58,157 bases of DNA from Rhodospirillaceae bacterium (lineage in GTDB: Bacteria; Pseudomonadota; Alphaproteobacteria; Rhodospirillales; Rhodospirillaceae): contig JAIBCD010000015.1 of NCBI GenBank assembly GCA_019694335.1, forward strand, positions 1-58,157, given 5' to 3'. Under the pieces are notes generated by a model. That model did no database searches. It was given only the letters and a program-made list of their open reading frames with translations, and was not told the DNA's origin. Position numbers and translations under genes: made by a program. Positions within the stretch are counted from its first letter, which is position 1. Each line of letters opens with the position of its first letter. Below are positions 3,734-45,775 of the stretch, in pieces.

Positions 3734-4201
3734 ATGGCGGTCTGCAAGGTCAACGAACTGAAGGGGTTTTTGGCCCGGAATCAGGCCATTTTGGGCTTGG
3801 ACCTGGGGTCCAAGACCATCGGCATGGCGCTTTCGGACGTGGGTTACATGGTGGCCACGCCGCTGGCCACGATTCCCCGGAAAAAGTTCTCCGCCGACAT
3901 GGCCACCCTGGAGGTGGTCATGACCAAGCACAACGTAGGCGCGCTGGTGATCGGCCTGCCCGTGCAGATGGACGGCACCGAGGGCCCCCGCGCCCAGGCC
4001 GCCCGGTCGTTTGCCCGGGAAGTACTGGCCCGGCGCGAGATGCCGGTCGCCTTCTGGGACGAACGCCTGTCCACCGCCGCCGTGCAGCGCATGCTGACGG
4101 ATGAAATGGATATGTCCCGCAAGCGCCGGGCCGAGGTCGTGGACAAAGCCGCCGCCGCCTACATCCTGCAAGGCGCCCTCGAGGCGATGCGGAACGCCTA
4201 G
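3734..4201 (+). CDS. ruvX: Putative pre-16S rRNA nuclease / Holliday junction resolvase family (YqgF/RuvX)
   Basis: RNase H-fold protein of 155 aa in the YqgF/RuvX family, implicated in 5' processing of 16S rRNA. Conserved acidic positions are visible: ILGLDLGSKTIGMALSD at the first strand, WDERLSTAAVQRML in the middle and VDKAAAAYILQGAL near the C terminus. The leader contains GGAGGGG, but about 16 bases before the ATG. It diverges from gatC. The annotation as resolvase is by family only; the rRNA role is better supported for relatives. Confidence 0.9.
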   Translation: MAVCKVNELKGFLARNQAILGLDLGSKTIGMALSDVGYMVATPLATIPRKKFSADMATLEVVMTKHNVGALVIGLPVQMDGTEGPRAQAARSFAREVLARREMPVAFWDERLSTAAVQRMLTDEMDMSRKRRAEVVDKAAAAYILQGALEAMRNA

Positions 4202-5747: not shown

Positions 5748-7081
5748 GCGTCGCGAAACCCGGCCGGATCCTTTACCGCAACGCGCGCATCGTCGACCCC
5801 GCCTCGGGCTATGACGGCCCCGGCGAACTGCTCACCGCCGGCGAGGACATCGCCGATGTCGGCAAAAAGCTGTTCGACAGCGTTCCCGGCGACGTGCAAG
5901 CCGTCGATTGCGATGGCCTGGTGCTGGCGCCCGGCCTGGTCGATATGCGCGTGCAGATCGGCGAACCCGGCGCGGAACATAAGGAATCGCTCCGCAGCGG
6001 CGGCGAAGCGGCGATCGCGGGCGGCGTGACCACCGTGGTCTGCCTGCCCAACACCAACCCCGTCATGGACGACGAAGCCACCTTGGAATTCGTCGCACGT
6101 CGCGCGCGCCAGGCGGCGCTGGCGAAAGTCTATTGCTACGGCGCGGTCACCAAGGGCCTGCAAGGCAAGGAACTGGCGGAGATGGGCCTGCTGGCCGAGG
6201 CCGGCGCGCTGGCCTTCACCGACGCCACCAAGGCGGTGGCCGATGCCCAAGTATTGCGCCGCGCGCTGCAATACGCCGCCACCTTCGGCCTGCTGATCGT
6301 GCAGCACCCGGAAGAACCCACCCTCGCGGGCGGGGTGATGAACTCCGGCGAGATCGCGACTCGCATGGGCCTGTCCGGCATTCCGCGCGAGGCCGAGATC
6401 ATCATGCTGGAACGCGACATGCGCCTGGTGGCCATGACCGGCGGGCGCTACCACGCCGCCCATATCTCCACCTCCGACAGCGTCGCGATCATCGCCAAGG
6501 CCAAGGACGCGGGGCTCAAGGTCACCTGTGACACCGCGCCGTTCTATTTCGCGCTCAACGAACTGGCGGTCGGCGACTACCGCACCTTCGCCAAGCTCTC
6601 GCCCCCCTTGCGCACCGAGGACGACCGCCAGGCCATTGTCGCCGGCCTCAAGTCGGGCGTGATCGACGCCATCGCCTCGGACCACGCGCCCCAGGACGCG
6701 GATTCCAAGCGCCTGCCCTTCCCGCAAGCGGCCTTCGGTGGCAGCGGCCTCGAGACTCTGCTCTCCGTGTCCCTCGACCTGTTCCACAACGGCGAACTCA
6801 GCCTGATCGAGACCTTGCGCCGCCTCACCTCCGCGCCCGCCGATGTGCTGGGCCTCAAGGCCGGGCGCCTCGCCAAAGGCGCGAAAGCCGACCTGGTATT
6901 GTTCGATCCCGACCGCGGCTGGAAAGTGATCGCCGACGCTTTCCACTCCAAGTCCAAGAACTCGCCCTTCGACGGCCGCCCGGTGCAGGGCCAGGTGATG
7001 CGCACCGTCATCGACGGCCGCACGGTGTTCGAACGCAACGACCTGGCGCAGACAGGCGCGAAGCGCGCCGCGCGCCGATGA
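5744..7081 (+). CDS. pyrC: Dihydroorotase-like protein, probably the non-catalytic PyrC' (PyrX) type
   Basis: A 445-aa amidohydrolase-fold protein in the class I dihydroorotase family, co-translated with pyrB and plsY. Several metal ligands of active enzymes are missing. The HxH after the first strand is replaced ([17 protein letters not shown]), the PHH motif reads APFYFAL, and the usual HAPH is SDHAPQD. The fold-defining segments [15 protein letters not shown] and AAHISTSDS are kept. By analogy with the inactive PyrC' chains that hold ATCase together in Pseudomonas, I infer a structural partner of PyrB. An active dihydroorotase should then be encoded elsewhere. Confidence 0.85.
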
Positions 7082-10742: not shown

Positions 10743-13577
10743 ATGCAGGTCGTTATTGTTGAGTCTCCGGCCAAGGCCAAGACCATCAACAAGTACCTAG
10801 GCGCCGATTACAAGGTGATCGCCTCCTACGGGCATATCCGTGACCTGCCCCCCAAGGACGGCTCCGTCCGCCCGGACGAGAACTTCGCCATGGACTGGGA
10901 GGTCGATAGCGGCTCCCAGAAACACCTCAAGGAAATCATTTCGTCCCTCAAGGGCGCCGACGGCCTGATCCTGGCCACCGACCCGGACCGCGAGGGCGAG
11001 GCCATCAGCTGGCACGTGCTGGACGAGCTGCGCAGCCACAAGGCGCTCGACGGCAAGAAGGTGAAGCGCGTCACTTTCAACGCCATCACCAAGAACGCCG
11101 TGCTGGACGCCATGGCGAACCCGCGCGACCTCGACATTCCGCTGGTGGACGCCTACCTCGCCCGCCGCGCGCTCGACTACCTGGTGGGCTTCACCCTGTC
11201 GCCGGTGCTGTGGCGCAAGCTGCCGGGCTCCAAGTCCGCCGGCCGCGTGCAGTCGGTTGCGCTGCGCATGATCTGCGATCGCGAATTGGAGATCGAGAAG
11301 TTCAAGGCCGAGGAATACTGGACTGTCGGCGCCGAAATGGCGACGCAGGCAAAAGAAGGCTTCGGCGCGCGTCTTACCCACTTCGAAGGCAAGAAGCTCG
11401 ACAAGTTCGACCTGAACGACGAAGCCAAGGCCACCCGCGCCGCCGCCGCCGTGCGTTCCGGTTCCTTCACCGTCACCGCGGTGGAGAAAAAGACCAAGCA
11501 GCGCCGGCCATATGCTCCCTTTACGACATCCACGCTGCAACAGGATGCGTCTCGCCGCCTTTATTTCTCCGCGCGCCAGACCATGGACCTCGCGCAGAAA
11601 CTCTATGAGGGCGTCGAGATCGATGGCGAGACCACAGGCCTGATCACCTATATGCGTACCGACGGCGTGCAGATGGACCAGGACGCCATCCACGCGGTGC
11701 GCGGCCTAGTCGCCGACCGCTACGGTAAGAAATACGTGCCGGAGCAGTTCCGCATCTACAAGTCCAAGGCCAAGAACGCACAGGAAGCCCACGAAGCCAT
11801 CCGCCCCACCGATATCCGCCGCACGCCGGAAATCGTGGCGAAATACGTGAGCGCCGATCAGCTGAAGCTCTATGAGCTGATCTGGAAGCGCACCATGGCC
11901 AGCCAGATGGAATCCGCCATCGTCGATGGCGTGTCGGTGACCGCTTCGACCCCGGACGGCCGGACGCAAGTGCGCGCCAACGGCTCGACCATCGTGTTCA
12001 AGGGCTACCTGGAAGTTTATGACGACACCCCGGCGCCCACTTCAAAAGAAAGTGTGGCGAAAGAGGCCAAGAAGGACGACGGCAAAGACCCGACTGGCGA
12101 CGAGGAGGACGAAAGCCTCGGCCGCCTGCTGCCGGCGATGACCGAAGGCCAGAAACTCGATGTCGTCAGCGTCCTGCCGGAACAGCATTTCACCCAGCCG
12201 CCGCCGCGCTTCTCGGAAGCCAGCCTGGTGAAGGCGCTGGAAGAAAAAGGCATCGGCCGCCCCTCCACCTACGCCTCTATCATCCAGGTGCTGCAGGACC
12301 GCAAGTATGTGCGCATGGATGGCCGCCGCTTCATCCCGGAAGACCGCGGCCGCGTGGTGATCGCGTTCCTGGAAAGCTTTTTCCTGCGCTACGTCGAATA
12401 CAACTTCACCGCCGACCTCGAGAACCAGCTGGACGAGATCTCGTCCGGCAACCTTGATTGGAAGCAGGTGCTGGCCGATTTCTGGCGCGACTTCGCCGCC
12501 GCCATCGACGGCACCAAGGATCTGACCCGCACCGCGGTGATCGACGCCCTGGACGAACTGCTGGAGCCGCACCTGTTCCCGGTGCGCGCCGACGGCACCA
12601 ACCCGCGCGTCTGCCCGGCCTGCACCGACGGCCGCATCGGCCTGAAGTTCGGCAAGTTCGGCTCGTTCATCGGCTGCTCGCGCTACCCCGAGTGCCGCTA
12701 CACCCGGCCCTTGGGCACGCCGGACGGCGCCAACGGGCAATTCGTGCTCGATGGGCCGAAGGATTTGGGCGCCGATCCCGTCTCCGGATTGAAGGTCACG
12801 CTGCGCGTCGGCCCCTATGGTCCTTACGTCCAGCTTGGCGGCGAGGAAGTCGCTCCCGCCCCGCCTGCGCCCAAAGTCGAGGCTGACGCCGGCGAAGTGG
12901 ACCCCAAGGCCAAGAAGAAAAAGAAGAAAGCCGCGCCCAAGGACAAACCCAAGCGCATGTCGCTGCCCAAGGGCACCGATCCCAACGACGTGGATCTCGC
13001 CAAGGCGCTGAAGCTGCTGGCGCTGCCGCGCGAGATCGGCCCCGACCCCGAGACCGGCGACATGATCCTGGCGGGCATCGGCCGTTTCGGGCCGTACCTG
13101 AAGGTCGGTTCACGCTACCAGTCGCTGCCCAAGGACGACGATGTCCTGGAGATCGGCCTCAACCGCGCCGTCGTGGTGCTGATCGAAGGCAAGGAGCGCC
13201 AGGGCAAGCGCGCCGGCGGTGGTTCCGCCAAGACCTTGGGCGAACATCCCGAGGATAAGAAACCCGTGACCTTGCGCTCGGGCCGTTTCGGCCCATATGT
13301 CCAGCACGGCCAGCTCCGCGCCACGCTGACGCGCGACCTGGAACCGGATACCGTGACCCTGGATGCCGCCGTCGCCCTGCTCGCGGCCAAGGCCGCCAAG
13401 GGCGCCGCCCCGGCCAAAGGCAAAAAGGCCGCTGCCGAGGCAGCGCCCCCTGCCCCCAAGGCCAAGAAATCGACTTCGGCCAAAGCGGTAAAATCGCCGA
13501 AGGCTAAGACAGACCCGGCTGTCAAAACCCCCAAACCCAAAGCGGGCGCCCGCGTGCCCCGCAAAGCTGCTGAATAA
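10743..13577 (+). CDS. topA: DNA topoisomerase I
   Basis: Type IA topoisomerase that relaxes negative supercoils, 944 aa. The Toprim domain opens MQVVIVESPAKAKTINKYLG and has ATDPDREGEAISWH. The catalytic Tyr is in LITYMRTDG at about residue 303. One zinc-ribbon unit (CPACTDGRIGLKFGKFGSFI) lies near residue 624. Three glycine-rich C-terminal repeats follow (VGPYGPYVQLG, IGRFGPYLKVG, SGRFGPYVQHG), then a Lys/Ala/Pro tail of about 70 residues. ATG 10743 has AAGGAAC eight bases upstream. An acidic insert (DDGKDPTGDEEDESLG) sits mid-protein. Confidence 0.97.
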   Translation: MQVVIVESPAKAKTINKYLGADYKVIASYGHIRDLPPKDGSVRPDENFAMDWEVDSGSQKHLKEIISSLKGADGLILATDPDREGEAISWHVLDELRSHKALDGKKVKRVTFNAITKNAVLDAMANPRDLDIPLVDAYLARRALDYLVGFTLSPVLWRKLPGSKSAGRVQSVALRMICDRELEIEKFKAEEYWTVGAEMATQAKEGFGARLTHFEGKKLDKFDLNDEAKATRAAAAVRSGSFTVTAVEKKTKQRRPYAPFTTSTLQQDASRRLYFSARQTMDLAQKLYEGVEIDGETTGLITYMRTDGVQMDQDAIHAVRGLVADRYGKKYVPEQFRIYKSKAKNAQEAHEAIRPTDIRRTPEIVAKYVSADQLKLYELIWKRTMASQMESAIVDGVSVTASTPDGRTQVRANGSTIVFKGYLEVYDDTPAPTSKESVAKEAKKDDGKDPTGDEEDESLGRLLPAMTEGQKLDVVSVLPEQHFTQPPPRFSEASLVKALEEKGIGRPSTYASIIQVLQDRKYVRMDGRRFIPEDRGRVVIAFLESFFLRYVEYNFTADLENQLDEISSGNLDWKQVLADFWRDFAAAIDGTKDLTRTAVIDALDELLEPHLFPVRADGTNPRVCPACTDGRIGLKFGKFGSFIGCSRYPECRYTRPLGTPDGANGQFVLDGPKDLGADPVSGLKVTLRVGPYGPYVQLGGEEVAPAPPAPKVEADAGEVDPKAKKKKKKAAPKDKPKRMSLPKGTDPNDVDLAKALKLLALPREIGPDPETGDMILAGIGRFGPYLKVGSRYQSLPKDDDVLEIGLNRAVVVLIEGKERQGKRAGGGSAKTLGEHPEDKKPVTLRSGRFGPYVQHGQLRATLTRDLEPDTVTLDAAVALLAAKAAKGAAPAKGKKAAAEAAPPAPKAKKSTSAKAVKSPKAKTDPAVKTPKPKAGARVPRKAAE

Positions 13578-40677: not shown

Positions 40678-40971
40678 ATGAGCAAAGCGAGAAAACTATC
40701 AGTGGTTGCATGCTGGGCGATGGCCGCGCTGGTAACGGCGAACATGGCATGGGCCGCGGCTGATCCCGCGCCCGCCGCCCCCATGCAGGTCACGGGGAAA
40801 GTCCATGCCGTCGATGTCGTCAATCAGGTCATCAAGATGGACGGCGGCCAGTACTATGTGGTGCCGGCCTCGATCAACTTGGCGGATATCAAGGAAGGCG
40901 ACCAGTTGGTCCTGAGCGGCGAGAAGGACGCGACCGGCAAGCTTCAGGTAAAGACCGTCACGAAGAAATAA
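40678..40971 (+). CDS. Small secreted protein (DUF1344-like)
   Basis: A 97-aa protein from ATG 40678 with GGAGGA upstream. Signal peptide (VACWAMAALVTANMAWA), a short Ala/Pro linker, then a small beta domain: MQVTGKVHAVDVVNQVIKMD, YYVVPASINLADIKEGDQLV, TGKLQVKTVTKK. The pattern resembles DUF1344-type periplasmic proteins. It may be oxygen-regulated through the FNR-type box upstream. Its 3' end overlaps the convergent gene by 14 bp. Confidence 0.75.
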   Translation: MSKARKLSVVACWAMAALVTANMAWAAADPAPAAPMQVTGKVHAVDVVNQVIKMDGGQYYVVPASINLADIKEGDQLVLSGEKDATGKLQVKTVTKK

Positions 40972-41485
40972 CCGGCTTACCCTCGTCCCACCAGCCGAAG
41001 AAGGCGTGGGTGATCGCCACGCCCAGGCCGCGCACGCACTGGGCTTCGTCCTCGGTCTCCGGGCCCCGGTCCATCATGTTCCAGGCGGCCCAGGCGCCGA
41101 TGGAATCCGACGTGACAAAGCGCGGATTGTGACCCTTGGCGGTCAAGGCTTCGAAGCTGCGGCCGAAGAACTCCTTGCAGTCGTCGAACGCCGCGAGCGC
41201 ATTGGCGTTGAGCTCCAGGAGGTGTTCGGTGACGCGCCCCATGAGCTTGGTTTCGCGCGCGCGGCCGACGCCAAGGTTCTCCAGGCGCGCCGCCGCGATG
41301 TACACCGCGGCGATCGTGAACACGATCTGCCACCAGGTCTCGTCTTCCGGCGTCGCGATAAACTGGGCCAGGAAGGGGTATTTGGCCAGGGCCGCCTCGC
41401 GCGCCGGCTTGGCCATCCCCTTGGCGGTCGCGACGAGGATATCCGCCCGCAGCATGAGCGGGTCTTCTTTTTCGGTGTCGTTCAT
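40958..41485 (-). CDS. Hypothetical cytosolic protein
   Basis: A 175-aa protein from ATG 41483-41485, largely helical and without signal peptide or membrane segment. It contains WWQIVFTIAAVYIAAARLENLG, FDDCKEFFGRSFEAL and IGAWAAWNMM. Family not recognised. GC usage is like the core chromosome, so it marks the left border of the AT-richer island that follows. Confidence 0.7.
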   Translation of the reverse strand: MNDTEKEDPLMLRADILVATAKGMAKPAREAALAKYPFLAQFIATPEDETWWQIVFTIAAVYIAAARLENLGVGRARETKLMGRVTEHLLELNANALAAFDDCKEFFGRSFEALTAKGHNPRFVTSDSIGAWAAWNMMDRGPETEDEAQCVRGLGVAITHAFFGWWDEGKPVISS

Positions 41486-41526
41486 CCCGGCAGTATCTAG
41501 CCCCGGGCTCCGGGACGCAAAATATT

Positions 41527-41724
41527 TCAAGCCCTGCCGATCAGCAATTGAACCGCAGTTCGATCCGGCCCCACACCTCTGATCTTAAGAATGGCGCTGA
41601 GCAATCGATAGGCGGCGGTGAGCATGCGTTCAGGGCCTTCACCGCCGATGCGGATATCGAAAATATGAAGTAGCCGGCCCTGTTCGGCTGGTTGCACCGG
41701 GACACCACTTTCGTGGCAGATCAA
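41527..41724 (-). pseudogene. Possible gene remnant adjoining repeat site 1
   Basis: A 65-codon frame starting within repeat site 1 (its first residues, ICHESGVPV, are repeat sequence). The remainder (FDIRIGGEGPERMLTAAYRL and LSAILKIRGVGPDRTAVQLL) has helix-like composition and could be the 3' end of a truncated gene. Recognised by no family; may be chance. Confidence 0.25.
41694..41724. repeat. Island repeat site 1 (partial)
   Basis: GCACCGGGACACCACTTTCG and continuation matching the central part of sites 2 and 4, including the CCAC-TTTC-GTGG hairpin (41705-41716) and AGATCAA. The palindrome on the left and the tRNA-end-like core are missing; a degenerate ATGGAAGT follows. The start codon of the next gene lies at its edge. 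Confidence 0.7.
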
Positions 41725-41726
41725 TA

Positions 41727-42069
41727 ATGGAAGTCTACGACGTCAACGAACCCGGCATGTTCGCCATCGAATTCGATAGTGCCGTAGGCCGACCCTTCGT
41801 GATCCGGGCTGTGGAGGCGATTCCAGACGCCCGCATCACTGAACTTGGACAGGTTCGGTTTGCCAAGTTCCTTGGGACTTTTTTACGCACGCGAAGAACT
41901 GATCTGCGACTTCAAAATCGGCGAAGATATATTTCGCGCGTTCGAGCCATTTGGCGACAGCAACGTGTACTGGATCCGTCAGATGAATGGCGAGCCGAGA
42001 TCGCCGCATCTCACCCGAATTCGGGAGCACCTTGCGGCAGGTGAAGCACACTGGTGTCGTTTTGACTGA
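41727..42069 (+). pseudogene. Small hypothetical gene, frameshifted at a T6 run
   Basis: Frame 1 from ATG 41727 reads MEVYDVNEPGMFAIEF and onward to VRFAKFLGTF. After a run of six T (41879-41884) the sensible sequence continues in another frame: YAREELICDFKIGEDIF, FEPFGDSNVYWIRQMNGE, stop at 42067-42069. Removing one T restores a single protein of about 113 aa. UUUUUUA is a -1 slippery sequence, but the required shift is +1, so programmed frameshifting is unlikely. It is a decayed gene or a base-call error. Function unknown. Confidence 0.6.
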
Positions 42070-42125
42070 TGGCGATCAATTCCGCTTCGGAATTACATCC
42101 CGATTGAAATCGCGGACGAATTTCC

Positions 42126-42303
42126 AGGTGCGACAGATCATTTAGCCGCACCTGAGACACCACTTTCGTGGAAGATCAAACGCTTATGGGAAGTAGCGCC
42201 CGGGGCCGGGCACCTGGACGCTAGAGATTGCAATGACTTACGGCAGAGTGAGACAAAATACTTTCCCGTGATCTACCGGGATTTCCCGCCGATTTGTCGC
42301 ACC
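42126..42303. repeat. Island repeat site 2 (most complete)
   Basis: Left palindrome AGGTGCG...CGCACCT (42126-42153), CCAC-TTTC-GTGG hairpin (42160-42171), AAGATCAA, then CGCTTATGGGAAGTAGCGCC plus CGGGGCCGGG (42181-42210), a 37-bp spacer, and a right imperfect palindrome GTGAGACAAAAT...ATTTGTCGCAC (42249-42302). The gap 42070-42405 is otherwise without genes; the last 100 bp are the leader of the 3D-domain gene. Confidence 0.75.
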
Positions 42304-42405
42304 GCGATTTCACGTCATCTTCTCAATACTGGTTCTGAGCGGGTCAATCACGGGCTCCGAATACGTATGCTCCCAGCGTCTCTAACGCTGAGGACATAAC
42401 TTCAC

Positions 42406-42864
42406 ATGAGCGACAACCGGGGCAAACCCGCCAGGGCCGGACACGATGTTTCCAACGAACCGCGTATTCCGGCAGGTAATGGACGGGAAAGCGGCGAGTG
42501 GACGGACGAAGCAGGATTGTCGCGAGGCGCGAAGGCAATCCTCCGACAGAACTGCCCGAAAGGCTACACGGTCGTATCGATGAACGTTACGGCCTACACC
42601 AGCGGCCCAGAAAGTACCGGAAAAAGACCGGGTGACCCGCAGTATGGGATCACGAAGAGTGGAGCTATAGCGGACCCAGGGACACTTGCGGCTCCACCCG
42701 GGTTGATGGGCCACAGAATGTATGTGCCGGGTTACGGTTGGGGTACAGTGCAAGACATAGGCGGAGCCATAAAGGGCAACCATCTCGACGTGTGGTTCGA
42801 GAAAGTAGAGGACGCCCGGAAGTGGGGGCGCCAAAACCTTGATGTGGTCGTTTGCAAAAAGTAG
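42406..42864 (+). CDS. 3D-domain peptidoglycan-active protein with N-terminal SGEWT motif
   Basis: A 152-aa protein from ATG 42406. Residues about 60-150 form a 3D (MltA C-terminal/Rpf-type) domain: VTAYTSGPESTGKRPGDPQ, GITKSGAIADPGTLAAPP, YVPGYGWGTVQDIGGAIKGN and HLDVWF contain the three conserved Asp residues. Such domains occur in lytic transglycosylases and cell-wall remodelling proteins. No signal peptide. Residues 19-36 (EPRIPAGNGRESGEWTDE) repeat the motif seen at the N terminus of the MepA-like protein at 8794-9411. The next gene overlaps its 3' end. Confidence 0.75.
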   Translation: MSDNRGKPARAGHDVSNEPRIPAGNGRESGEWTDEAGLSRGAKAILRQNCPKGYTVVSMNVTAYTSGPESTGKRPGDPQYGITKSGAIADPGTLAAPPGLMGHRMYVPGYGWGTVQDIGGAIKGNHLDVWFEKVEDARKWGRQNLDVVVCKK

Positions 42865-43600
42865 GCGTGTGGCGAGGCGCCGTTTCTTCGTCGCACTCAT
42901 CTTCGCCACCGGAGTTGTCACGGGCCCCGTACGTGGTGAAGACGCCGGGGCGCCGACCGGCATCTTCAGCGCCGCCGCCACATCCTTATCGCGCGCGTAT
43001 GTCGATCATCTAACCGTCATTGCGCCATCTCCGGACGGTCGTTCGCGATTAGTCATTCGTGCGGAAAGACAGAGCTATGTTCTCCGCGTCGAGGGGCGGA
43101 TTGGATCATTGAAGGTGCCCCTCGCCTATGGACCCAATACTGAAGTCCTGTGGTCGCCGGATTCGATGGCGTTCCTGATAACAGAGAACGATGGCGGGCT
43201 GATGGGATCGTATCTGCTGACGGTGGTTGGGCAAGTGAACGGCCATCTGACTGTTCGGCATCTTTCCAAACTCGTGGCGACGAAGTTTGGTCATCCTGTG
43301 CGTTGTTTTGAACCTGAATCCCCAAATGTCGTCGGGCTGACCTGGCTAGGGTCCTCGCGTGAGCTGGTCGCGGTCGCGGAGATCGTGCCGCATAGCAACT
43401 GCGACAGCATGGGAACTTTCACCGCTTATAGCGTCGATCCATGGCGCTCGCGTGTTCTAAATACCTTTACGCAGGCAGAGGCTAAAGAACGTTTCGGTTC
43501 TCTCATGGGACCGCGGCTATTGAATGCATCCGACGCGTGCGGCAAAGAACCTGAGGCCTGCTACATCCCGCAATTGCATCCCGATCTCAAACCGCACTGA
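42842..43600 (+). CDS. Secreted hypothetical protein, possible partner of the 3D-domain protein
   Basis: A protein of 252 aa from ATG 42842, overlapping the previous stop by 23 bp; a GTG at 42869 is an alternative. Signal peptide (ARRRFFVALIFATGVVTGPVRG). The mature region has beta-strand-rich segments resembling part of a beta-propeller (TVIAPSPDGRSRLVIRAERQ; TEVLWSPDSMAFLITENDGG) and four Cys towards the end. The overlap shows co-translation with a peptidoglycan-type enzyme; an immunity or chaperone role is an untested inference. Confidence 0.72.
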   Translation: MWSFAKSRRVARRRFFVALIFATGVVTGPVRGEDAGAPTGIFSAAATSLSRAYVDHLTVIAPSPDGRSRLVIRAERQSYVLRVEGRIGSLKVPLAYGPNTEVLWSPDSMAFLITENDGGLMGSYLLTVVGQVNGHLTVRHLSKLVATKFGHPVRCFEPESPNVVGLTWLGSSRELVAVAEIVPHSNCDSMGTFTAYSVDPWRSRVLNTFTQAEAKERFGSLMGPRLLNASDACGKEPEACYIPQLHPDLKPH

Positions 43601-43611
43601 GACAACGCGAA

Positions 43612-43739
43612 ATCGCTTATGGGAAGATGGTGCCCGGGGCCGGGGGTAGTGCAAGTACGGCAAATCAAGGGGTTAGCCCTGAGGTGCGACAAAATAACGT
43701 CCCGTATTGTCCCCTATTAAGAGGGCGTTTTGTCGCACC
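43612..43739. repeat. Island repeat site 3
   Basis: ATCGCTTATGGGAAGATGGT plus GCCCGGGGCCGGG (43612-43644), a 38-bp spacer, then a perfect 12-bp inverted repeat GGTGCGACAAAA (43683-43694) / TTTTGTCGCACC (43728-43739). The spacer length matches site 2. The CCAC hairpin part is absent here. Confidence 0.75.
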
Positions 43740-43761
43740 CTAGTCCACCAGACCGTCGCGG

Positions 43762-44229
43762 CTATTTTCGGGCCGGAACGTTCAACGTAATAATCCCAAA
43801 CTTTCCACCGTTCTCTTTCTCAAACCAGATTTCGCCGTTCCCCACCATCACGCCCTGATAATTGGCGAAAAGGCATTGGGGTTCCTGAGCAATGACAGCG
43901 TGTTTGAGTTCAGGAGTAACGATTGCCGGGTATCGTTTTAGTAGATCGGCTGAATTGGAAATGGTCTTTGGTTCGCTTGTCCCGGAAACGGCAACAGGGT
44001 ACCGAACCAGCAAGGCAAATGCCTCTTTGTCGTCATCGGCGACGATACTTCGCAGTGTTGCGAAAAAGGCCCTGGCCTCTGATGCAAACTGGACACCGCG
44101 TGCGTCTTCAACGGTGTTACCCTTGCACGAACCAATCTCATTCGCTCCACAAACAGGAGCGTAAAATAAAGCCGAGAGAAACGCGGCTAGTGAATTGCGC
44201 CGCGTTAACTGTGAAGACATTGACTTCAT
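43762..44229 (-). CDS. Small secreted protein, NTF2-like appearance
   Basis: A 155-aa protein from ATG 44227-44229, overlapping the upstream stop by 4 bp. Signal peptide (RRNSLAAFLSALFYAPVCGA). The body resembles a widespread periplasmic domain: ARAFFATLRSIVADDDKEAF, LLVRYPVAVSG, LLKRYPAIVTPELKHAV, NYQGVMVGNGEIWFEKENGG. I know this pattern from uncharacterised NTF2-like secreted proteins but cannot give a function. Second gene of a two-gene unit in module 3. Confidence 0.72.
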   Translation of the reverse strand: MKSMSSQLTRRNSLAAFLSALFYAPVCGANEIGSCKGNTVEDARGVQFASEARAFFATLRSIVADDDKEAFALLVRYPVAVSGTSEPKTISNSADLLKRYPAIVTPELKHAVIAQEPQCLFANYQGVMVGNGEIWFEKENGGKFGIITLNVPARK

Positions 44230-44753
44230 TTTAACGTCGGATGCGGGCGAAGTTGGCCACTCTGGAAAGACCCTTGCCATCCAGCGGCGCTCTTAAGCTG
44301 TCCGTTCACAAAAACAAATTTCACTGTAGATCGCCGTTGCTTCTTCGTGTCGTCGAACTGCACCGAGACTTCTCGTGTGCCACAAGGATCGATCTGCATT
44401 GGAACGTTGTTCCACTCCAAAAAACTGTAGGCGTCGGCTTCCATCATTTCCGACAACTTCCGAACACTATCTAAGCCGGCCCCTAACGGTCGCCCAACGT
44501 CACCACCGCCAAGACTCGCAGTCACATCGGGAGCAACGATTCGAGGAAGCTGACTGTCGGTTTTCCAGTCTTGGCTGGATGCCCGCCGTACAATTTCGAT
44601 GGCACGCTTGCCGAGTACGAGGTGCAGCTTATCCATCGTCGTGACCTGAGAAATATCACATGTAACATCCTCAGCAGCAAAGGCGGGGGCCACAACGCTT
44701 CCAAGAACCAGCATCGTCGAACCAAAATAGAGTGCACGCAGATTAATTTTCAT
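44226..44753 (-). CDS. Secreted hypothetical protein
   Basis: A 175-aa protein from ATG 44751-44753. Signal peptide (LRALYFGSTMLVLGSVVAPAFA). Two Cys (DVTCDISQ; IDPCGTREVSV) may pair. Contains ALGKRAIEIV-like helix (VLGKRAIEIVRRASSQDW) and a beta-rich end (STVKFVFVNGQLKSAAGWQG). Low GC with many AT-ending codons. Translationally coupled to the next gene. No family recognised. Confidence 0.7.
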   Translation of the reverse strand: MKINLRALYFGSTMLVLGSVVAPAFAAEDVTCDISQVTTMDKLHLVLGKRAIEIVRRASSQDWKTDSQLPRIVAPDVTASLGGGDVGRPLGAGLDSVRKLSEMMEADAYSFLEWNNVPMQIDPCGTREVSVQFDDTKKQRRSTVKFVFVNGQLKSAAGWQGSFQSGQLRPHPTLK

Positions 44754-44928
44754 ATCGAATACGCCCCCATTTGGTTTTATGCGTAAAATGTTGGCATCGA
44801 ATTGAGACAAAAATCTGACCGCCACCGTCGCAAAGTGTGACAATTCGACTCCGCTCCACAATATGAAGCACATCGCGTGTAGCCTTTAGCATTGCGGTGT
44901 TAGTCATGTAGGTATGCGCCGGAACAGA

Positions 44929-45356
44929 TCATCTAATAGCGGCGGGCGCGACGCCCCAATCGCTACACTCTGAGAGATTTATGTATTCCGCCCCTGGCTC
45001 CGGGACAAAATGCTCCAACTTGCCTTCAATCGTAATATTGGTGCGGTCGTGCGCCCGCAGTAGCTTTGCGAACTGCCTCCCGTCGAACACTGCGATGCAT
45101 TTTTCCATGCAGGATCATCCATCGAAATATCGGGTTGACTGACACGTTCGAGAGCGGAGCGGTCTGCCCACAGGTTTCTGCTCTCGAAGCCAAATCGCAG
45201 ATAACCCCGCACTCGTACTACCGCCCCCACAGCCTGCTCTCTATGAGCTAGCAGTTCATCGACTGTGTACGACTTAATTGCGTCGCGGTCTGATGCACAT
45301 GACGTCAGGACAAGGGCAGCCGCGAGTGCTGCAGCGACTAGTCTAGTACTAAGCAT
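44929..45356 (-). pseudogene. Lipoprotein gene, frameshifted at an A5 run
   Basis: Starts MLSTRLVAAALAAALVLTSC, a signal with lipobox LTSC, followed by SYTVDELLAHREQAVGAVVR, VRGYLRFGFESRNLWADR. After TGGAAAAAT (A run 45100-45104) the original frame gives a Ser-rich tail, while the alternate frame continues sensibly as CIAVFDGRQFAKLLRAHDRT, NITIEGKLEHFVPEPGAEYI, NLSECSDWGV to a TGA at 44929-44931. One missing A would restore a protein of about 140 aa. Either decay or an assembly indel. Confidence 0.6.
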
Positions 45357-45365
45357 CGCCCAACC

Positions 45366-45587
45366 TCATTTGGTGTCCAACGGAAGCTCCCGCCGCGAAC
45401 GCCAAAGCCAGTAGACAATGATTCCGACACACAAAAGCGCGAGCGTTGTTCCTCCATAGAGGAAGTCGTCAGCCGTTTTTGCACCACCGCGCATCCGGGC
45501 GGCAAGGTAGGCCCCTGGCACAAGTATAATGATCGTCGGGAGGGCGTTCCTCAGCGCGTATCGTATGTGATGCTTCTTGAAGCTCAC
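45366..45587 (-). CDS. Small two-helix membrane protein
   Basis: About 73 aa from a GTG at 45585-45587 that has GAGG nine bases upstream. Two hydrophobic helices: ALPTIIILVPGAYLAA and TTLALLCVGIIVYWLW, with a basic end (RSRRELP). An in-frame TTG at 45662 would lengthen it; frames beyond that read through repeat site 4. Ends 9 bp before the lipoprotein gene and is probably co-transcribed with it. Confidence 0.5.
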   Translation of the reverse strand: MSFKKHHIRYALRNALPTIIILVPGAYLAARMRGGAKTADDFLYGGTTLALLCVGIIVYWLWRSRRELPLDTK

Positions 45588-45680
45588 CGCTTTGGGCCTC
45601 GTTGCTAACCTGCTCGCCGGAATAGCGATGTGATCCAGCTTCTGAATTGCACTATTGAGCAATCTCAGCAGGTTGCCGAC

Positions 45681-45775
45681 GGTGCGACAAATGAAATCCG
45701 GCGCATTTTGTCGCACCCGGAATACCACTTTCGTGGAAGATCAATCGCTTATGGGAGGTGGTGCCCGGGGCCGGG
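45681..45775. repeat. Island repeat site 4, right border
   Basis: Palindrome GGTGCGACAAAT (45681-45692) / ATTTTGTCGCACC (45705-45717), hairpin CCAC-TTTC-GTGG (45725-45736), AAGATCA, ATCGCTTATGGGAGGTGGTG plus CCCGGGGCCGGG ending at 45775. Reverse-complemented, the core ends CCGGC-CCCGGGC-A-CCA, the layout of a tRNA T-stem, acceptor strand, discriminator and CCA. The msrA stop lies 10 bp further on. Confidence 0.75.

Follow-up and report, generated by a model that had tools for sequence, protein, structure and literature searches.

A short array of gene cassettes with tRNA-end cores in a Rhodospirillaceae genome, probably recombinase-less and extended in trans

Between msrA and a gene of 190 amino acids, a Rhodospirillaceae bacterium carries several copies of a composite repeat whose core resembles the 3' end of a tRNA, and the locus raises the question of what these copies are and how the genes enclosed between them arrived. 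The DNA analysed, called the window here, comprises positions 1-58,157 of contig JAIBCD010000015.1, and the genome to which it belongs is labelled G000. Our comparison with related genomes suggests that the window holds a short and partly decayed array of cassettes without a recombinase of their own, probably accreted by site-specific recombination with the enzyme supplied in trans; we give this reading a probability of roughly 65%.

The composite repeat is real and lies far above chance. The 95-bp unit at 45681, used as a DNA query against its own genome, returned 42139-42210 (86%, E 4.9e-18), 43611-43644 (94%, E 3.4e-7) and 41697-41725 (90%, E 3.2e-4). Covariance model R1 scores right units at 43624 (91.9 bits) and 42190 (85.7 bits), and model R2 scores left units at 45681 (83.6 bits) and 42127 (79.7 bits), these units being among the seeds of the models that score them. 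The inverted repeat GTGNGACA-N5..60-TGTCNCAC is found three times in the window, always within the array, and not once in 251,652 bp from 18 comparison loci. A first-pass annotation of this DNA had described four sites that share the same ordered parts; DNA search and covariance models bear out the repeat, but the sites are unequal. The full left part is present at 42127 and 45681 only; site 41694 has CCACTTTCGTGG and AGATCAAT with no core and no clear palindrome, and site 43612 has the core without the first palindrome, the CCAC hairpin and AGATCAA. The second palindrome, said to begin 37-38 bp after the core, follows the cores at 42194 and 43628 (spaced 38 and 40 bp from the 16-nt core) but not all four, and the core at 42194 reads TAGCGCCC, not TGGTGCCC.

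Read on the opposite strand, the core TGGTGCCCGGGGCCGG matches the 3' end of tRNA-Phe from the same genome, in agreement with the tRNA layout that had been read from the reversed core. A tRNA with that 3' end exists: tRNA-Phe(GAA), at G000:C91:29146-29221, ends CCGGCCCCGGGCACCA, and its last 16 bases (G000:C91:29206-29221) are the only full 16-base match to the core that DNA searches found outside the window. The core is not scattered through the genome by itself, and occurs without the rest of the unit in this tRNA only. Contig G000:C91 stops exactly at the CCA of tRNA-Phe, which is compatible with variable DNA behind the tRNA and is no proof of it. In relatives the core varies with the tRNA: it is TGGTGCCCGGGG for Phe, TGGTGCCCAGGA for Leu and TGGTGGGCGCACCA for Lys, tRNA-Leu and unit both carry TGGTGCCCGGAAGAGG in genome G003, and further cores match the ends of tRNA-Met (loci L196 and L197) and tRNA-Glu (L200). 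The far end of the insert bears a direct copy of the tRNA 3' end, the mark of an integrative element at a tRNA site. In some cassette left ends the tRNA end also recurs in inverted form (GGGCACCA), some 100 bp inward of the core (L031 near 11194 and near 3905, L032 near 9950).

Beyond the window, the covariance model R1, which was built from 13 sequences and spans core, right arm and palindrome, has 57 matches. They come from 27 of 118 genomes, that of the window counted, and a few of the weakest are bare tRNA ends. Within the genus 13 of 19 genomes have a match; the other genomes with matches belong to further genera and families of the order. Here the units stand in rows beside tRNA genes, namely tRNA-Phe, tRNA-Leu(CAG) and tRNA-Lys(CTT): in G015 (L031), for example, right units at 1751, 4014, 6097 and 9779 belong to a row flush with an intact tRNA-Phe at 11298. 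At the 12 loci with a tRNA and separate right units, all units (20/20, a count that omits four rows which are tRNA ends or weak) lie on the 3' side of the tRNA and in a single orientation. Such rows support the earlier suggestion of repeated site-specific insertion or a tRNA-derived mobile repeat. Simple sequence patterns returned little. A strict pattern of core and left flank had no match in the genome contigs searched, and the right-arm pattern had none in viral contigs; in genome contigs the latter met 7 stretches, 4 in the window's genus and 3 in Pseudomonas at one kind of place, which are coreless and were counted as chance. Outside the window, G000 itself has two weaker right units, at G000:C17:8527-8633 (L194, 43.1 bits) and G000:C111:13956-14070 (L195, 27.6 bits). 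Among the public records, L142 and L143 (Candidatus Marinimicrobia) and L140 (Rhodospirillaceae) fall in one genus, and their titles look inconsistent.

Empty and occupied versions of one site can be compared at tRNA-Leu, which is followed downstream by an RNase D-like gene (rnd) and a kpsF-like gene, both named by reading of their translations. Fifteen of the 26 distinct tRNA-Leu loci searched show both tRNA and rnd, and in the other 11 one of the two is off the piece. The interval from tRNA-Leu to rnd is empty, with a gap of 80-145 bp, in 8 genomes (G000, G012, G013, G024, G026, G035, G043, G056), and occupied, with 4.65-11.2 kb, in 7 (G003, G006, G010, G011, G016, G017, G020). An arm with a site like that of the integration host factor (IHF) lies directly beside rnd in three of the seven (G003, G016, G017), together with a decayed core in G017. 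Empty and differently filled sites, for which the first-pass annotation had proposed a search, are present here in relatives, but no empty version of the window's own site at msrA was found among relatives, whose DNA downstream of msrA differs. Successive insertions that extend one site with variable filling are the pattern of additive islands, seen here in a comparison among species, not strains.

The surroundings of the core read like an attachment site of the lambda type (attP): a tRNA core with IHF-like sites and, some 40 bp away on either flank, an inverted repeat. Two elements of this anatomy had escaped the earlier description, namely that AGATCAA is IHF-like and that the palindromes resemble inverted repeats linked to integrases. 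AGATCAA opens ATCAANNNNTTR, the central part of the IHF consensus, which is given as WATCAANNNNTTR (PMC7581858); in the seed alignment the CA and TT of the site are invariant and the four letters between them variable. Among 50 right units (68 rows minus 18 that are too short), ATCAANNNNTTR is found in 24 (shuffled mean 0.06), a relaxed form in 33 (0.41) and the strict WATCAANNNNTTR in 15; among 41 left ends, TCAANNNNTTR is found in 14 (shuffled mean 0.19). The outer inverted repeat of the right units, repeat B, keeps its pairing as its letters change: 90.4% of its cells are paired and its covariation score is 0.144, values that are each reached in 0 of 500 shuffles. The right palindrome begins 37-40 bp from the core in four units and the left one ends 42-43 bp from it in five left ends, a near-equal spacing that therefore brings the site close to a mirror: repeat – IHF – core – IHF – repeat. 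At several tRNA-Leu loci (L188, L190, L230, L233, L237, L238, L239) an extra palindromic-looking stretch, recognised by eye, adjoins the tRNA core (AGTTTTTGTAAGCTCG...CTAACAAAAACT in L238) and is placed between core and IHF-like site where the latter is seen. At L060, L065 and L070, where other integrases lie at tRNA-Gly and tRNA-Lys, an IHF-like motif (TAAGTCATTGA, by eye) adjoins the tRNA end in reversed orientation.

These parts can be arranged into a route of insertion. At one end of a cassette, inverted repeat A would be followed by an IHF-like site and this by the tRNA core; at the other, the tRNA core would be followed by an IHF-like site and inverted repeat B. The joined ends of an excised circle would form a lambda-type attP in the order repeat A – IHF – tRNA 3'-end core – IHF – repeat B. 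An integrase encoded on an island (the L224 family described below), supplied in trans, would bind the repeats as arm sites and recombine the core with a tRNA 3' end or a resident core, and insertion would restore the tRNA end and rebuild a core. Repeated insertion would stack cassettes in one orientation, the newest presumably closest to the tRNA. The parts and their spacing, the match of core and tRNA, the orientation wherever a tRNA is seen, the empty and occupied sites, the similar cargo and the layout of the islands can all be read from the sequences compared, and they are consistent with such a route.

Which enzyme might act on the cassettes? The window has been described as free of recombinases, and indeed no tyrosine recombinase was found in it with a profile made from the genus's integrases (30 integrase matches from six genomes, one of which, the L061 row, had been translated on the wrong strand). 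Applied to 57 array or tRNA loci, the profile gave no clear integrase in 55 (L178 is marginal) and a clear one in two: L100, at the tRNA-Phe of G008 with no further units, and L194 (G000:C17), some 7 kb away from a right unit. At another 20 tRNA-Leu loci the profile picked up 2 integrases, one of which (G007, L224) ends about 100 bp from tRNA-Leu. Homologues of the L224 integrase number 11 matches in 10 of 148 genomes, and in 8 of these 11 loci a tRNA (Leu, Glu, Met, Met, Asp, Leu, Ser, Lys) has its 3' end towards the integrase gene. Of the 8 gaps between tRNA and integrase, 6 contain a perfect inverted repeat, 8 bp or longer (shuffle frequencies 0 to 0.08), compared with 1 of 7 control gaps; its distance to the core is 39-46 bp in five of these and 69 bp in G007. 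The cassettes' motif GTCGCAC falls within the gap repeat in 2 of the 8 (G007-Leu and G015-Lys, both in the window's genus; the G015 tRNA-Lys island is incomplete at a contig end) and in 0 of 7 controls. Twice an integrase of the L224 family shares a contig with a right unit: G092:C31 holds an island at tRNA-Met, about 16.5 kb in size, in which an MmeI-type restriction gene and a Mob-like match slightly under cut-off were seen, and G124:C50 (L276) is about 7.6 kb long, with a phage-capsid gene, GTGGGACA at both ends and a contig that stops in tRNA-end-like sequence (by eye). The L224-family integrase islands are the best candidates for a helper. As a separate observation, the capsid gene of L276 is a prohead protease–capsid fusion in a small integrase island, reminiscent of a phage satellite.

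Two other sources of the enzyme were considered and set aside. XerD- and XerC-like recombinases are present in G000 and, by likeness, in the other five genomes; R1 is empty up to about 1.5 kb around the 30 integrase matches except for one 14-bit match, which argues against XerC/XerD as movers. The integrase of G000:C17, about 7 kb from the unit at C17:8527, is not of the L224 family, and its neighbour reads like a tmRNA end (by eye).

The cargo between the units is small and mixed. Measured in 25 intervals, of which the window's first has no left core, the distance runs from 0.2 to 12.3 kb with a median of 2.1 kb, 21 of the 25 lying at 0.8-3.7 kb, and GC is lower than at the own locus in 24 of 25. 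A Pfam scan of 41 of the 78 predicted cassette open reading frames (ORFs) recorded a BLUF sensor, a SulP transporter, a methyltransferase, a HigB/HigA-like pair (Gp49, HTH_37), Sel1 repeats, a cyclophilin, a Nif11 peptide with radical SAM and 2-oxoglutarate (2OG) oxygenase, an FAD oxidase, a 3D domain and HlyD-type proteins; many of the scanned ORFs have no Pfam family, and no recombinase or transposase domain rose above cut-off among the 41. The impression of short secreted genes holds for some ORFs, which begin with signal-like stretches (by eye). Cassettes that keep both att ends and carry no integrase or transfer gene correspond to cis-mobilizable elements (CIMEs), with the limits that the ends are incomplete in several cassettes and that the genes seen are those of the 41 of 78 ORFs scanned. 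At the G002 tRNA-Phe (L212 9473-15100), a Nif11 precursor-like gene, a radical SAM enzyme and a 2OG oxygenase likely form a peptide natural-product cluster.

Several species share similar cargo. A rhodanese-like gene by units or tRNA-Phe in G015, G016 and G018 has 90-91% identity, against 69-72% for the flanking DNA of G015 and G016, and a toxin-antitoxin-like pair of G007 and G055, which belongs to another genus, has 80%, against 67% over 414 bp at the tRNA. Transfer may be the simplest reading of these two cases, with selection on single genes as the alternative. For the cyclophilin gene, G008 and G017 show 87% identity, with flanks at about 69-79%, and G001 and G017 show 86%, with flanks at about 67-75%; the window's 3D-domain region has 70% identity over 308 bp to a cassette of G011.

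Among the alternatives, the one that survives best holds that the cassettes are remnants: full integrase islands would have entered the same tRNA sites serially, lost the integrase and most of their genes, and left cis-mobilizable elements behind. Integrase islands with similar ends do exist, several cassette left ends are absent or truncated, such a route is described for CIMEs (PMC5704250), and 15 of 31 ssrA islands of Dehalococcoides are without an integration module (PMC3146451). Against this stand the small size of the intervals (21 of 25 at 0.8-3.7 kb, median 2.1 kb), the profile result of no clear integrase in 55 of 57 loci with L178 marginal, and the cyclophilin gene, whose position relative to the units differs between G008 and G017. 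On this balance we regard decay from whole islands as unlikely, at something like one chance in four.

Casposons and IS200/IS605 elements are marked by features such as short direct repeats at tRNA ends and hairpins close to the element ends. Both occur here, and another enzyme, a casposase (Cas1) or a hairpin-guided HUH transposase, might produce 16-bp duplications at tRNA 3' ends; however, a similar architecture adjoins tyrosine integrases at tRNA ends, which makes this origin very improbable. An integron-like system, in which a folded single-stranded palindromic site is the substrate of an integron integrase, would account for cassette arrays, palindromic ends, mixed cargo and a GC content under that of the locus in 24 of 25 intervals. 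It is already disfavoured and is a shade less probable still: none of the five tyrosine recombinases of G000 reaches the integron-integrase (TIGR02249) cut-off (the best scores 130.7 bits where 265 are required), the two with the highest scores resemble XerD and XerC, and the common core is a tRNA end with IHF-like sites on both sides. The least probable reading, of transcription terminators or repetitive extragenic palindromic (REP)-like repeats with an incidental tRNA likeness, has in its favour that some palindromes lie between gene ends, but it is already disfavoured for the arrays at tRNA genes by a core that is identical to the genome's tRNA and changes with the tRNA, by the fixed geometry and by the empty and occupied sites.

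The reading of recombinase-less cassettes accreted in trans has its own difficulties. The window array is not beside a tRNA, being placed between the 190-amino-acid gene and msrA; it would therefore have reached a secondary site or moved after assembly. G011:C19 offers a parallel: a cassette there has TGGTGCCCGGGGACGG at both ends and no flanking tRNA on the fetched piece. There are 28 further unit-bearing loci, the window included, without a tRNA on the fetched stretch; in two of them (L197 and L205) a tRNA lies farther along the contig in the identical arrangement, and at several of the remaining ones the contig ends close to the unit. The array-bearing genomes are assemblies of many contigs. 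At tRNA-Leu, the G000 site is empty, and four of the seven occupied loci (L226, L230, L233, L234) have no clear R1 right unit, because of which their fillings may be older or of another type. The attachment site raises doubts of a second kind. The strict WATCAANNNNTTR is met by just 15 of the 50 right units, and R1 includes the core and the IHF-like site, so the IHF count in right units is inflated and not independent of the matches. Of the 7 control islands, which carry other integrases, 3 likewise have IHF-like motifs beside the tRNA end, reversed (by eye), and such motifs are therefore not special to the cassettes. Repeat B has pairs changed on both sides in 3 of 8, a value reached by 36 of 500 shuffles, and repeat A is missing from several internal left ends (43628; G015 at 6101 and 9783). 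The proposed helper is likewise uneven: an L224-family integrase was not found in G000 at E 1e-25, G010 has the integrase and no right unit, G121 has it with a right unit of only 18.5 bits, and the repeat is a different one at the integrase islands of G002 (at tRNA-Asp, the third island with a tRNA in the window's genus) and G043 and imperfect in G137. The excess of cargo identity is uneven too, the cyclophilin genes of G001 and G008 having only 82% with flanking stretches up to 82%. No circle, excision or transfer was seen in the assemblies compared.

Within the window, the array can be followed on the forward strand from left to right. At 41682-41753 lies the vestigial left end of an older cassette, with CCACTTTCGTGG and the IHF-like AGATCAAT and without a core (R2, 45.9 bits; repeat family D3). 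The middle left end has inverted repeat A (GGTGCGACAGATCATTTAGCCGCACC) at 42127-42152, 42 bp from the core, the IHF-like site ATCAAACGCTTA (consensus ATCAANNNNTTR) between repeat and core at 42175-42186, and a diverged tRNA-Phe 3'-end core (TAGCGCCCGGGGCCGGG) at 42194-42210. The right unit at 42190-42306 (R1, 85.7 bits) combines core, spacer and inverted repeat B (42248-42303), its IHF-like site having one mismatch. It opens a cassette of 1.4 kb from core to core (42211-43627; GC 57.0% against 65.2% in the window), with a gene with a 3D domain (PF06725, E 5.3e-12) at 42406-42864 and an ORF of 253 amino acids at 42839-43600 for which Pfam gave no family at E 0.01, both on the forward strand. 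The next boundary is a truncated left end with an intact tRNA-Phe core (43609-43643, core 43628-43643; R2, 29.1 bits), followed by the IHF-like site ATCAAGGGGTTA right of the core (43664-43675), which with core and inverted repeat B (43683-43739) makes up the right unit at 43624-43742 (R1, 91.9 bits). The second cassette, 2.1 kb from core to core (43644-45758, GC 52.7%), holds four ORFs on the reverse strand (43762-44280, 44226-44873, 44979-45356 and 45366-45728) without a Pfam family at E 0.01, the last of which overlaps repeat A. The right-hand left end consists of inverted repeat A at 45681-45717, 42 bp from the core, the IHF-like site ATCAATCGCTTA at 45740-45751 and a tRNA-Phe core at 45759-45775, which is the outer end of the array, 10 bp from the msrA stop codon and with no tRNA next to it. 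Both flanking genes lie on the reverse strand. In 12 of 18 congeners msrA (PF01625, 45785-46510) has homologues with an identity of 55% or more, and the 190-amino-acid gene (40958-41530) has homologues in 2 of 18. No tRNA was found in the window, and a scan of it with Rfam gave no family at gathering scores.

The composite tag and the rows at tRNA genes suggest a collecting of genes like that of integrons, with the cutting enzyme perhaps coming from larger mobile islands. A bolder proposition, which we advance tentatively and hold at rather less than an even chance, is that the cassettes form a distinct class, an integrase-less analogue of integrons at tRNA genes. Each cassette would have a full attP of the lambda type, whose two arm palindromes stand as mirror images and co-evolve, would be moved in trans by the integrases of visiting islands, and would be exchanged among tRNA sites and among genera of the order. 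If true, this would be a second system for collecting gene cassettes besides integrons. Additive tRNA islands are known from other aquatic bacteria, where cassettes are recognised, in the available text of the reports, by repeats of tRNA fragments only; a fuller anatomy of the attachment site together with a candidate integrase family makes cassette movement directly testable, and the sequence model can find such arrays in other genomes.

In the open-licence literature we found no description of this attachment architecture or of these arrays; tRNA-anchored cassettes and integrase-less accreted elements as such are already published. Island fGI-2 of 'Ca. Methylopumilus' is an additive island in which the final 20 bp of tRNA-Lys recur as marks (PMC10872708), and in 'Ca. 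Actinomarinales' gene cassettes are inserted at tRNAs, with exchange between genera reported (PMC7771536). Like these, the present arrays add genes at tRNAs with direct repeats of the tRNA end and variable cargo, but the available text of both sources describes the tRNA repeat only, whereas here IHF-like sites and two inverted repeats are present and linked to a family of integrase islands. The products of CIME accretion (reviewed in PMC5704250) and the tandem ssrA islands of Dehalococcoides (PMC3146451) share att-ended elements without integrase, in tandem beside integrase-bearing ones at one RNA gene; the present modules differ in being small (21 of 25 at 0.8-3.7 kb), in using three tRNA genes in one genus (Phe, Leu, Lys) and in their conserved end palindromes. 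Tycheposons (PMC10872708, PMC11389934) are likewise cargo elements at tRNA genes moved by tyrosine recombinases, but they are reported at 4-200 kbp; in the cassettes described here no tyrosine recombinase was found, and such enzymes are present in separate islands. Clusters of attC sites lacking integron-integrases (CALINs; PMC11389934) also are cassette arrays that rely on a recombinase made elsewhere; here, by contrast, the site is a tRNA 3' end with IHF-like sites, and the candidate enzymes belong to the Phage_integrase family, none reaching the cut-off of the integron-integrase model. Closest in anatomy to the units is the lambda-type attP (PMC7581858) with its core, IHF sites and outer arm sites, from which they differ in outer inverted repeats that are placed nearly as mirror images about 40 bp from the core and that an integrase would presumably bind.

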